From the NCBI RefSeq assembly GCF_004210215.2, contig NZ_CP067394.1, positions 2,666,001 to 2,730,000 of the forward strand: a stretch of 64,000 nt of DNA. Reading direction: 5' to 3'. The translations under genes and the position numbers were made by a program. Under the pieces are notes generated by a model. The model had not been told where the DNA came from and made no database searches. It worked only from the letters and a program-made list of their open reading frames with translations. Within the stretch, counting starts at the first letter, position 1. Each line of letters starts with the position of its first letter. Positions 21,882-25,575 of the stretch are shown in pieces. This stretch comes from Cryobacterium sp. SO1 (GTDB lineage Bacteria; Actinomycetota; Actinomycetes; Actinomycetales; Microbacteriaceae).

Positions 21882-22982
21882 ATGTCGGAAGCATCTGCCG
21901 CACCCACGGTGCGTATTGTCCGCACTCGCAAGGGTGGCGACTCCAAGAACCCCACCACCGAGTACTCCTCTCTTTTGCACACCGTGCGGAACCTCGGCCT
22001 GCTCGGCCGCCGCACGGGTTTCTACTGGGGTGTCTTCGCCGCTCTGGTACTGATCACCGCCGGCCTCGGCGTCGGCTTTGTGCTGCTGGGCGATTCCTGG
22101 TACCAGCTGATCATCGCCGGCGTGCTGGGCATCATCCTCACCCAGTTCGCCTTCCTTGCCCACGAGGCCTCACACCGCCAGGTCTTCGAGTCCGGCCCCG
22201 CGAACGACCGGGCCGGCCGCATCCTCGCCAACCTGTTCGTCGGCATCAGCTACGCCTGGTGGATGACCAAGCACAGCCGGCACCACGCCAACCCGAACGT
22301 GGTGGGCAAGGACCCGGACATCGACCCCGACGTGATCCGGTTCAACGAGAAGGACGCGTCAGAGGTCAACTGGCTCACTTCCTTCATCACCCGCAAGCAG
22401 GGCTACCTGTTCTTCCCGCTGCTCACCCTCGAGGGCATCAACCTGCACATCCACGGCTTCAAGACCGTCTTCGGCAGGGGCAAGGTCGACAAGCGCTGGC
22501 TCGAGATCACCATGCTCACCACGCGCATCCTGGTCTACTTCGCCGTGATCTTCTACTTCCTGCCGCTGGGCATGGCGTTCGCCTTCATCGGCGTGCAGAT
22601 GGCCGTCTTCGGCGTCTACATGGGCGCATCCTTCGCACCCAACCATAAGGGCATGCCGCAGCTGCCGCACGAGAGCAAGGTCGACTTCCTCCGTCGCCAG
22701 GTGCTCACGTCGCGCAACATCCGCGGCGGCACCTTCATGGACACCTTCATGGGCGGCCTGAACTACCAGGTCGAGCACCACCTGTTCCCGAACATGGCCC
22801 GCCCGCACCTGAAAAAGGCGCAGGAGATCACCAAGGAATACTGCGAGTCGAACAAGATCCTGTACACGGAGACCGGTCTGTTCGAGTCGTACGGCATCGT
22901 CGTCGCCTACCTCAACAAGGTGGGCCTGGCCGCCCGCGACCCGTTCGACTGCCCGATGGTGCAGCGCTTCCACCACCGCTGA
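21882..22982 (+). CDS. Membrane fatty-acid desaturase
   Basis: Di-iron membrane desaturase that introduces a double bond into acyl chains. 366 residues. All three histidine boxes are present: HEASH (94-98), HSRHH (131-135) and QVEHH (about 295-299). Two paired helix bundles flank them. AAAGG lies before the ATG at 21882. The 190-bp upstream gap is AT-rich for this genome and long enough for a regulated leader, as in cold-induced desaturases, but I could not fit a clear -35/-10 pair. The stop TGA lies at the left edge of the IS110 element, so the insertion just missed the gene. Regiospecificity is unknown. Confidence 0.9.
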   Translation: MSEASAAPTVRIVRTRKGGDSKNPTTEYSSLLHTVRNLGLLGRRTGFYWGVFAALVLITAGLGVGFVLLGDSWYQLIIAGVLGIILTQFAFLAHEASHRQVFESGPANDRAGRILANLFVGISYAWWMTKHSRHHANPNVVGKDPDIDPDVIRFNEKDASEVNWLTSFITRKQGYLFFPLLTLEGINLHIHGFKTVFGRGKVDKRWLEITMLTTRILVYFAVIFYFLPLGMAFAFIGVQMAVFGVYMGASFAPNHKGMPQLPHESKVDFLRRQVLTSRNIRGGTFMDTFMGGLNYQVEHHLFPNMARPHLKKAQEITKEYCESNKILYTETGLFESYGIVVAYLNKVGLAARDPFDCPMVQRFHHR

Positions 22983-23002
22983 CCCCGTTACCTTGTAAGT
23001 AG

Positions 23003-23197
23003 CCCTTGAAGCTTGCTTCTGAAGGGTGTTGGCCTGTTAGGCCCGGCATGGTTGTTGCCCCCAGTCGTTAATGATCCGGGGGGTGTTGTCACCGGGCCTG
23101 ACTGGCATTGGGTGATCGCTAATAGGGGCTCGACTGGAACTCGTTTCTGGGTCGAACGTAACGTGGATGCCGAGACTTGATGCCGTGGACAGGCCAA
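23003..23197 (+). ncRNA. Candidate IS110 bridge RNA (target loop then donor loop)
   Basis: The fold was worked out by hand. A 5' hairpin CCCTTGAAG/CTTC..AAGGG (23003-23026) is followed by an outer closing stem TTGGCCTGT (23029-23037) with ACAGGCCAA (23189-23197), perfect over 9 bp. Inside are two hairpins with internal loops. Loop 1 has stem AGGCCCGG/CCGGGCCT (23039-23046, 23092-23099) and inner CCCCC/GGGGG. Loop 2 has stem GGCAT/ATGCC (23104-23108, 23167-23171) and inner TCGAC/GTCGA (23130-23134, 23151-23155). Loop 2, the expected donor loop, carries ATAGGGGC (23122-23129), identical to the right end of the element, and GTAACG (23158-23163), complementary to the left end. The order and strands match the IS621 bridge RNA. 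Confidence 0.75.
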
Positions 23198-23224
23198 CTA
23201 ATCCGCATGGCTGACGGGAAACTC

Positions 23225-24424
23225 ATGATTGAGAATTACGACAGCGTCGACGTGTTCATCGGTGTTGACGTTGGAAAAAGCGAACATCACGCGGTCGCTC
23301 TGGACCGCTCTGGGAAACGCCTCTATGACAAAGCGCTCCCCAATGACGAGGCAAGACTGCGCGCCGTGATCCAGAAACTCAAGGTCCGCGGGCAGGTCCT
23401 CCTAGTCGTCGACCAGCCCGAAACAGTCGGCGCTCTGCCCGTCGCCGTCGCTTATGCCGAAGGCATCCTCGTGGCCTATTTGCCCGGGCTGGCTATGCGT
23501 CGAATCGCCGACTTGCACCCCGGTGAGGCAAAGACGGATGCCCGCGACGCGGCCATCATCGCCGAAGCTGCCCGCACCCTCCCGCACGCTCTGCGCCCGC
23601 TGCGCCTTGAAGACGAGCAGATCGCTGAACTATCGATGCTGTGCGGATTCGACGATGACATCGTCGGCCAGATGACCGCCACCAGCAACCGGATCCGGGG
23701 GCTGCTGATGCAGATCCACCCAGCGTTGGAGCGGGTACTGGGCCCGCACCTCGACCACCCGGCCGTCCTGGATCTCCTCCAGAAATACCCGACACCGACA
23801 GCACTGACGGCCGCCGGGAGGGTCCGGGTCGGCAACCGCCTCATCAAGCTCGCGCCACGGATGGGCCGCCGCTTAGCAGAGGAAATCTTCCAGGCGCTCT
23901 CCGAGCAGACCGTCATCGTTGGTGGCACCCACGCCACACGCGCCGTGCTGCCGCGCCTCGCCGAGCAGCTCAGCACGCTCCACCGCCAACGCACCGAAAT
24001 TGCCGTCGAGGTCGCCGAGCTCGTCGACGCCAACCCACTGGAACCGATCATCACGAGCATGCCCGGGGTCGGTGTGAGGACCGCCGCCCGTGTCATCACC
24101 GAGATCTCCGGCAAGGAGTTCGCCACCGCCGGCCACCTCGCTTCCTACGCCGGCCTGGCGCCGGTCACCAGACGCTCCGGATCATCCATCCGAGGCGAGC
24201 ACCCCTCACGGCGTGGCAACAAAGTCCTCAAACGCACGCTGTTCCTCTCCGCCTTCGCGGCCCTCAGCGACCCCGTCTCACGCACCTACTACGACCGCAA
24301 GATCGCCCAAGGTAAACGCCATAACCAAGCCCTCATAGCCCTCGCCCGCCGACGCTGTGACGTGCTCTACGCCATGCTCCGCGATGGCACGCTCTACGAA
24401 AACAAAACCCCCATCAAGACTTGA
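23225..24424 (+). CDS. IS110-family transposase (DEDD + serine recombinase)
   Basis: RNA-guided recombinase of the IS110 type, about 399 residues. The N-terminal RuvC-like DEDD domain shows GVDVGKSEHHAVALD (Asp15 from this start), VVDQPE, and KTDARDAAIIAEAAR with the last two acidic residues. The C-terminal Tnp domain shows SMPGVGVRTAARVITEI, a helix-hairpin-helix-like segment, then YAGLAPVTRRSGSSIRG with the candidate catalytic serine, and RRGNKVLKRTLF. The frame is intact. ATG 23207 and ATG 23180 are alternatives; 23225 gives the usual N-terminus and leaves the RNA stem (ending 23197) untranslated. The TGA overlaps the TTGACG box at the right end. Confidence 0.93.
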   Translation: MIENYDSVDVFIGVDVGKSEHHAVALDRSGKRLYDKALPNDEARLRAVIQKLKVRGQVLLVVDQPETVGALPVAVAYAEGILVAYLPGLAMRRIADLHPGEAKTDARDAAIIAEAARTLPHALRPLRLEDEQIAELSMLCGFDDDIVGQMTATSNRIRGLLMQIHPALERVLGPHLDHPAVLDLLQKYPTPTALTAAGRVRVGNRLIKLAPRMGRRLAEEIFQALSEQTVIVGGTHATRAVLPRLAEQLSTLHRQRTEIAVEVAELVDANPLEPIITSMPGVGVRTAARVITEISGKEFATAGHLASYAGLAPVTRRSGSSIRGEHPSRRGNKVLKRTLFLSAFAALSDPVSRTYYDRKIAQGKRHNQALIALARRRCDVLYAMLRDGTLYENKTPIKT

Positions 24425-24446
24425 CGAAACACATAGGGGCACCCCC

Positions 24447-24509
24447 TCGCGAACTGTGAGGAAAGCCCCCGGAATCTCGGATTCTTGGGGCTTTTCTCAC
24501 GCTTCGCGA
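24447..24509. repeat. Dispersed palindromic element, family 2, copy 2
   Basis: The left arm 24447-24469 and right arm 24487-24509 (GGGGCTTTTCTCACGCTTCG and three more bases) are imperfect 23-bp complements around a 17-nt centre. The geometry equals copy 1 at 9831-9894. It directly borders the right end of the IS110 element, so it is the probable insertion landmark. Confidence 0.75.
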
Positions 24510-24531
24510 ACCGATCGGTAGGGTTGAGACA

Positions 24532-25575
24532 ATGTGGATGTGGGGAGTTGCGGCGGCCGGGATGGCCACCCTGGCGGCGTGGGGTGTGCACACTCTCGTT
24601 CCCGCGGTCCCGCTTCTGACCGCGGCCGTGCTGCTGGGCATCGTGGTGGGGCAGCTGCCCATGCTGCGCCCCGCCCTGGCCGGCCCGCTGGGGCCCGGCC
24701 TGTCCCTGGCCGCCAAACGCCTGATGCGGCTCGGCGTGGTGCTGCTCGGCCTCAAGCTCAGCCTGGTCGACATCGCCGCGCTCGGCTGGCTCACCATCAG
24801 CAGCACGGTGCTGATCGTGCTGCTGACCTTCTTCGGCACCCTGTGGCTGGGCCGCCGGGTGGGCCTGCCCGGCAATCAGCCGCTGCTCATCGCCACCGGC
24901 TTCGCCGTCTGCGGCGCCTCCGCCATCGGCGCGATGAGCGGGGTGATCAAGGCCAAGGACCGGGAGACCGCCACCCCGGTGGCGCTCGTCACCCTGTGCG
25001 GCACCCTCGCGATCGGCGTACTGCCGCTGCTCTGGCATCCGCTGGGACTGACCGACCTGAAATTCGGCCACTGGGTCGGCGCCGGGGTACACGATGTGGG
25101 CCAGGTCGTCGCCACCGCGCAGATCGCCGGGTCGGCGGCCCTCGCCGTGGCCGTGGTGGTCAAGCTCACCCGGGTGTTGATGCTCGCCCCGCTGGTGGCC
25201 GGCGTGGCGGTCTACGAACGCCGCCGGGCGCCCGTCCCGGTCACCCCGGCCGGCGACGTGATCGGCACCCCTGCCGCCGTGCCCGCCGCTATGCCTGCCG
25301 CCGTGCCCGCCGCCCGCCGAACGCCGGTGCTGCCCCTGTTCGTCGCCGGGTTCCTGGCGATGGTGCTGGTACGCACGTTTGTTCCGCTGCCCACGGCCGT
25401 GCTCGAAACAGCCGACCTGGTGCAGACCGTGCTGCTGGCCATGGCGCTGTTCGGGCTGGGCACCGCGGTGCGGCTGACCGAGCTGGTGCAGACCGGCGGG
25501 AAGGCGCTGGGCGTTGGCCTGGCCTCCTGGCTGCTGATCGCCCTGCTGGCGCTGGCCGCCGTGCAGCTGAGCTGA
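24532..25575 (+). CDS. YeiH/UPF0324-family membrane transporter
   Basis: 347 residues with about ten helices. Family features are LLGIVVGQLPML in the first helices, LMRLGVVLLGLKLSL, and the highly conserved GFAVCGASAIGAMSGVIKAKD followed by GAGVHDVGQVVATA. Members are called putative sulfate exporters; in this family a role with taurine/sulfonate breakdown is proposed for some. A low-complexity insertion rich in PAAVPAAMPAAVPAA (about residues 245-263) sits in a cytoplasmic loop. The start could be ATG 24532 or ATG 24538. It precedes metY on the same strand with a 61-bp gap, which fits a sulfur-assimilation link (inference). Confidence 0.88.
   Translation: MWMWGVAAAGMATLAAWGVHTLVPAVPLLTAAVLLGIVVGQLPMLRPALAGPLGPGLSLAAKRLMRLGVVLLGLKLSLVDIAALGWLTISSTVLIVLLTFFGTLWLGRRVGLPGNQPLLIATGFAVCGASAIGAMSGVIKAKDRETATPVALVTLCGTLAIGVLPLLWHPLGLTDLKFGHWVGAGVHDVGQVVATAQIAGSAALAVAVVVKLTRVLMLAPLVAGVAVYERRRAPVPVTPAGDVIGTPAAVPAAMPAAVPAARRTPVLPLFVAGFLAMVLVRTFVPLPTAVLETADLVQTVLLAMALFGLGTAVRLTELVQTGGKALGVGLASWLLIALLALAAVQLS

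Follow-up and report, generated by a model that had tools for sequence, protein, structure and literature searches.

An IS110-group insertion sequence with a probable C-run-directed bridge RNA, and natural guide variants of its relatives in Arthrobacter

The closest described systems are IS621, ISEc21 and ISMch6, and the comparisons made here draw on parts of the published accounts. IS621 carries in its left end an RNA with a 5' stem-loop and two guide loops, of which loop 1 reads the target and loop 2 the donor; the 5' side of a loop corresponds to the top strand and the 3' side is complementary, and the right end of the element equals the left donor guide (PMC11208160, PMC11208158). The CT core reported for IS621 applies to it and to related orthologues, and is not a description of the IS110 group as a whole. 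ISEc21 and ISMch6, both of the IS110 type, have an upstream RNA that reads both target strands in the same order, and for ISMch6, a single copy, natural redirection by changed guide bases has already been reported (PMC11187229). IS621 and ISEc21 are known to use handshake pairing and a junction promoter (PMC11208158, PMC11208160, PMC11187229). Covariation of guide and target over thousands of IS110 elements is likewise already known, as is one natural redirection. Members of the IS1111 group carry their RNA downstream of the recombinase (PMC11208160, PMC11187229).

The locus considered here lies at 22983..24446 of a 64-kb window (the whole stretch of DNA analysed, 64,000 nucleotides at 2666001-2730000 of a single-contig genome of 4.07 Mb); all features are on the forward strand. 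It is very probably an insertion sequence of the IS110 group with a bridge RNA of its own, in which the donor loop specifies the two ends of the element and the target loop a C-run. It shares with IS621 the recombinase domains, the left-end RNA with its 5' stem-loop and two guide loops, the order of those loops, the assignment of strands to their sides, and a right end equal to the left donor guide, and it shares with ISEc21 and ISMch6 the upstream RNA that reads both target strands in the same order. It differs from IS621 in having low-complexity target guides that fit each other, in the length of its recombinase (about 400 aa, compared with a 328-residue IS621 chain in the PDB), and in its apparent core: the CT dinucleotide of IS621 is absent, and a C-run or NC adjoins GTTAC instead, which bars the description "IS621-like in detail" and not membership of the IS110 group. 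The difference from ISMch6 is one of extent, as the redirection described below extends over eight genomes, two of them holding repeated copies, involves several different guides, and is accompanied by a host repeat that could be counted. ISKrh6 of Kocuria (IS110 family, 1,476 bp) is also actinobacterial and similar in length, and it too has non-coding sequence upstream and ends that are unclear; it was compared by description only, and the part of that description used here gives no guide or target (PMC12500396).

The recombinase and the five genomic copies

The recombinase gene occupies 23225..24424, with an alternative start at 23207, and its frame is intact, as the initial annotation had claimed. 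It encodes 399 aa from the ATG at 23225, in register with the start of many relatives, or 405 aa from the ATG at 23207. Both of its Pfam domains, PF01548 (DEDD RuvC-like, E 4.1e-48) and PF02371 (Transposase_20, E 1.2e-20), score above the curated cut-offs, and PDB matches were obtained to the IS621 transposase (8wt6, E 2.6e-15) and the ISCro4 transposase (E 6.3e-14). The conserved serine of the C-terminal domain, a trait of the IS110 group, is present: in the PDB-match alignment an SGSS motif falls on the SGSS of IS621, placing the serine codon at 24176..24178. The IS621 serine in question is one that we take to be the nucleophile S241, with the offset counted by hand. A second trait of the group is a left end longer than the right, and here about 240 bp with the structured RNA precede the gene. 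As the Pfam domains are common to the wider IS110 family, they would also suit an element of the IS1111 group or of another class of RNA-guided transposon. An IS1111 element would have a downstream RNA and sub-terminal inverted repeats of 7-17 bp. Here the RNA precedes the recombinase, which is the IS110-group order, and the gene is followed by no more than about 22 bp; either assignment is exceedingly improbable.

Five full copies of the element are found in the genome at five different sites, and they can be aligned over exactly 22983-24446. Four are identical, and the fifth (L005) carries three substitutions, at window positions 23401, 23404 and 23503, all of them inside the recombinase gene and none in the RNA region. 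In a sister genome of the same genus (L090), whose locus is 97% identical, the uninterrupted site reads CTGA-CCCCC-TCGCG; among the 29 loci viewed in this comparison, L091 reads CCACC and the remaining 27 are more divergent. The window copy has four C's on its left and five on its right, the latter run (24442..24446) being part element and part target according to the copy alignment and the empty site. Because both ends lie in C-runs, the exact ends are not placeable, and the earlier bounds of 22983-24445 prove to be one among several equal placements. These four and five C's compare with the CCCCC of the empty site, in a homopolymer that hides the register of any target duplication.

The suggestion that the element may be active gains from the near-identity of the copies and from the empty site, which back recent movement, and by these sequence comparisons it is probably active. 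An inactive, domesticated or relic element, whose guide matches would be inherited remains, is made conceivable by degraded relatives elsewhere in the same genome (79-85% identical pieces at genome coordinates 760249-760524 and 1455284-1455635), which show that the family has also decayed here; with an intact frame and four identical copies and a nearly identical fifth at unrelated sites, that reading is very unlikely.

A desaturase gene lies directly 5' of the element, its stop codon at 22980-22982. In sister genomes a palindrome comes after this stop codon, and the insertion has parted the two (22980-24508), so that read-through from the desaturase gene could also transcribe the bridge RNA.

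The bridge RNA and its donor loop

The region upstream of the recombinase is predicted to give a bridge RNA of about 200 nt, presumably expressed from the element. Its fold had been described as a 5' hairpin, a 9-bp closing stem and two hairpins, and checking base by base and folding agree with this description. The 5' hairpin (23002..23027) appears in both the MFE and the centroid structure, and the closing stem pairs perfectly between its 5' arm TTGGCCTGT (23029..23037) and its 3' arm ACAGGCCAA (23189..23197). Between these arms lie the target-binding hairpin (23040..23101), whose helices 1-4 are paired in 98-100% of cells among 49 relatives, and the donor-binding hairpin (23103..23187), whose helices 5-8 are paired in 91.8-99.5%. 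The window RNA has an MFE of -83.5 kcal/mol (z -2.14, with 4 of 200 shuffles as good), moderately better than shuffled sequences, and the stronger support for the RNA thus comes from the relatives, not from the single-sequence fold. A scan of 22600-24700 against Rfam gave four sub-threshold matches and none to a bridge RNA family.

From 230 loci encoding a relative, 80 were kept, with recombinase identities of 68-96%; their hosts are Actinobacteria, several Burkholderiales and, for one locus, Steroidobacter. At the Burkholderiales loci L075, L080, L081, L083 and L085-L087 the recombinase match runs from residue 24 on, and L060, a part copy, is absent from all tables. The 73 cut-out RNA regions, the window included, were reduced to 49 at under 95% identity; L032, which has a small tandem duplication, was left out and L069 taken in, which leaves the number at 49. 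RNAalifold predicts 43 pairs in this alignment, 17 of them changed on both sides, and 97.2% of pair cells pair. Cells changed on both sides number 120, compared with 39.9 in shuffles, and further pair types 52, compared with 46.9; the latter count was equalled in 2 of 500 shuffles, the other four measures in 0 of 500. When partners were slid, at most 59.1% paired, with 25 cells, in a control that flatters the structure because it is derived from the same sequences. The closing stem, which the alignment misplaces, had to be tested apart: the longest helix has at least 7 pairs in 37 of 49 relatives, compared with 48% for swapped arms and 29% for shuffled arms, the swapped-arm control not being clean because related stems resemble one another. 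The relatives, in short, keep the stems with compensatory changes.

As in IS621-type RNAs, the 5' side of the donor loop equals the right end of the element and its 3' side is complementary to the left end. The left donor guide ATAGGGGC (23122..23129) recurs as the right end, or left donor, at 24433..24440, an identity that is confirmed base by base, and the right donor guide GTAACG (23158..23163) is the reverse complement of the left end CGTTAC, or right donor, at 22986..22991. This second match, reported in the initial annotation, is exact, but it had been given too much weight: among 20000 dinucleotide shuffles of the second hairpin, in the window alone, 5768 match the 6-nt left end by chance, making the right donor guide weak by itself and barely above chance. 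The 8-nt right-end match arises in 287 of these shuffles, and both matches in the right order in 35.

The relatives carry more weight. For them the search itself had required both the GTTAC[CT][TA]T that opens the element in 74 of 74 parsed left ends and the right guide core CG[TC]AACG, the conservation of which is no independent test. Comparison of the left donor guide with its own right end covers 71 loci (70 of the 79 tabulated relatives, nine having no readable guide or right end, and the window). The two agree exactly in 56, by wobble only (G.T or U.G) in 11, and are mismatched in four (L040, L048, L057, L088), so that the guide tracks its right end in 67 of 71 loci; the maxima over 5000 permutations were 56 for loci free of mismatch and 39 for exact ones. 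A change to A at guide position 5 is matched in the right end in 7 of 7 cases, and at position 7 an A stands with A in 17 and a G with A, as a wobble, in one; a guide A against an end G does not occur among the 71 loci. The right end varies together with the second-loop guide; as the stems are kept too, the relatives bear out the initial annotation on both points that it had named as able to refute it. Tree-independent contrasts number four, three in the same direction, none opposite and one unchanged, which is too few for significance.

The target loop, C-runs and the Arthrobacter repeat

The first loop, with the letters TTGCCCCCAG and CCGGGGGGTG, contains the core CCCCC of a left target guide (23058..23062) and a right target guide GGGGGG (23078..23083); neither these, nor the C-run sites, nor retargeting in relatives figured in the initial annotation. 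The left core equals the C-run at all five genomic sites, and the right guide is complementary to the C-run on the right of the element. Read on the element's top strand, the five copies have 4/5, 9/6, 8/7, 5/6 and 5/8 C's to their left and right, so that five of five lie in C-runs on the predicted strand. Runs of at least six are scarce in the 64-kb window, which has 6 of C and 2 of G. Where relatives have C-run guides, the left flank ends in 3 or more C's ahead of GTTAC in 63 of 69 cases and reads CCCTC or CCGC in the remaining six, and the right flank opens with 3 or more C's in 62 of 65; these flanks overstate the evidence for the target, as the adjoining C's are partly the element's own, about 5 by count.

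Copy L004 interrupts a gene whose frame is kept in ten viewed homologues, and by our reading the site in that frame had 6 C's; taken with L001 and L005, it points to a contribution of about 5 C's by the element itself. When the empty site of L005 was sought in 57 genomes, 16 matched, one being its own genome and the others aligning only in short stretches that stop before the site, so that its target length is taken from the frame reading. L001 and L002, two of the five, lie directly against a terminator-like palindrome of 60 bp (24448-24507 at the window copy, CGCGAACYGTGAG..AAAGCCCC), of which there are 159 half-sites genome-wide. As 20 of the 55 half-sites examined, the L001 and L002 sites included, have CCCC within 12 nt upstream, C-runs are common at the edge of this palindrome. 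Among the listed publications on target sites of the IS110 family, none connects poly-C with IS110, and we do not claim such targets as unreported.

The predicted fold pairs CCCCC with GGGGG, and a homopolymer eases any guide match, both of which would suit a real structured RNA in which CCCCC/GGGGGG is a mere hairpin stem while insertion into C-runs follows from a preference of the protein or from DNA shape. The bearing evidence comes from Arthrobacter. A search of 206 genomes of this genus found a match in 43, and eight of these carry a changed target loop in readable copies: ACGCTC/GAGCG in L061 (Arthrobacter MA-N2, G080), for example, and ACGCTC/GAGAG in L069 (OY3WO11, G081). The changed left guides of the clade are ACGCTC (four genomes), ACCCTC (three) and TTGCTC (one). 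In all eight genomes the left flank equals the element's own changed 6-nt guide, in seven by script and in one (L131) by eye, and the scripted count of 7/8 exact was reached in 421 of 100000 permutations. Copy by copy, 11 of 12 left flanks are exact, and L157 agrees at 5 of 6 positions with a wobble. In G080, G081, G215 and G229, the four of these genomes with readable right flanks, the flank is CACTCTCA or CACGCTCA, in agreement with the right guide, with the exception of L157 in G080, which has CCCGCTCA. A target loop that matches the insertion site, as in IS621-type elements, is therefore present both in the C-runs and in the changed guides of eight of eight genomes.

The insertion sites of this clade are copies of a repeat, RCSCTCNCTCACNT, found 79, 63, 30, 68 and 26 times in G080, G081, G229, G132 and G215, compared with 0-2 for a reversed control in those genomes; the genome of the window has 2 copies. 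A 13-base motif guessed at first for this target had 0-4 matches per genome and was dropped, the longer repeat motif being the correct one. In G080, G081 and G132, the intergenic repeat reads ACGCTC(G/T)CTCAC, frequently at 32-bp spacing, and its variable base depends on the host. The right guide GAGCG is confined to G080, a genome with 53 G-type repeats and 1 T-type repeat. The other seven genomes have GAGAG, with G-type to T-type ratios of 4:71, 3:81, 12:20, 0:5, 4:20, 1:8 and 4:13 (reversed-pattern controls gave 0-3 per genome). The right guide thus agrees in eight of eight genomes with the commoner form of the repeat in its host, with a single independent switch (G080), and the base that separates the two right guides is the base that separates the repeats of their hosts.

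In the recombinase tree, the changed-guide clade lies beside or inside the C-run elements (97*, quick tree), and from this position C-run targeting looks ancestral at the Arthrobacter clade. A mere hairpin stem does not account for elements that enter sites matching their changed letters on both sides, the host-specific base of G080 included, with recombinases that fall inside the C-run tree, and it is highly improbable. On the preferred reading of the loop as a pair of target guides, the target loop has mutated in this Arthrobacter clade, whose element now enters a host repeat found genome-wide, and loop letters ACGCTC/GAGAG would lead one to expect insertion at ACGCTCTCTCAC.

Joined ends and the significance of the guide variants

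By analogy with IS621 and ISEc21, the element would leave in circular form, with a promoter for the RNA created where its ends are joined; this RNA would hold the circle through its donor loop and the C-run through its target loop, and the recombinase would exchange strands where the two are paired. RNA binding and recombination would follow those systems, handshake pairing is compatible with the present locus, and circle formation and a junction promoter are likewise compatible with its sequence. The right donor guide extended to 23165 reads GTAACGTG and would pair at 8 of 8 positions with the circle junction CACGTTAC. In the Arthrobacter repeat, the letters flanking the element sum to an uninterrupted repeat if the joined ends are ATAGGGGC-AC-GTTAC, in which case all 8 positions of the right donor guide GUAACGUG pair with CACGTTAC. 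Junctions of the right-end/left-end type, GGCACGTTA, can be read directly in L041, L150 and L173. A donor junction of right end, AC and GTTAC for all members was considered and is contradicted by the C counts of the window copies, where the C's appear to number about 5, giving a promoter spacer of about 22 nt, compared with a single C in the Arthrobacter copies. A -35-like box in the right end, TTGACG (24421..24426), may combine with the left-end TACCTT into a circle-junction promoter. If AC is present at the junction, the spacing from TTGACR to TACYTT or TACTAT is 17 or 18 nt in 12 and 56 of 68 loci, in a count for which the search itself required TTGAC[AG].

Other right ends among the relatives depart from the usual form. 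Those of L082, L150, L041 and L173 are directly followed by another left-end-like sequence of the GTTAC type, as tandem elements or joined ends would be. In the Microbacterium relatives L037, L039, L041, L054 and L063, the right end lies 323-1824 bp past the gene, compared with about 20 bp elsewhere, with other ORFs between (DUF6176, E 2e-31, in L037; only a sub-threshold match in L054; no Pfam match in L063), and these ORFs may be passenger genes inside IS110 elements.

The C-run programme could be imagined as an old generalist setting of these elements in Actinobacteria and Burkholderiales, in which slippage of the register adds or drops C's, changes the -35/-10 spacing and so tunes the amount of guide RNA, the guide mutation in Arthrobacter then being an escape to a host repeat that does not slip; we regard this as speculative and rather unlikely. 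The present locus and its relatives contribute a C-run programme together with a multi-genome series of natural guide variants, an unusually clear case of natural retargeting. For annotation, the C-run programme explains why the alignment of copies alone cannot place the ends of such elements. The guide variants, with their directly readable landing sites and host repeats, form a ready-made series for testing the natural retargeting of bridge RNAs, and one that also bears on the agreement between donor flank and target and on the behaviour of low-complexity targets.
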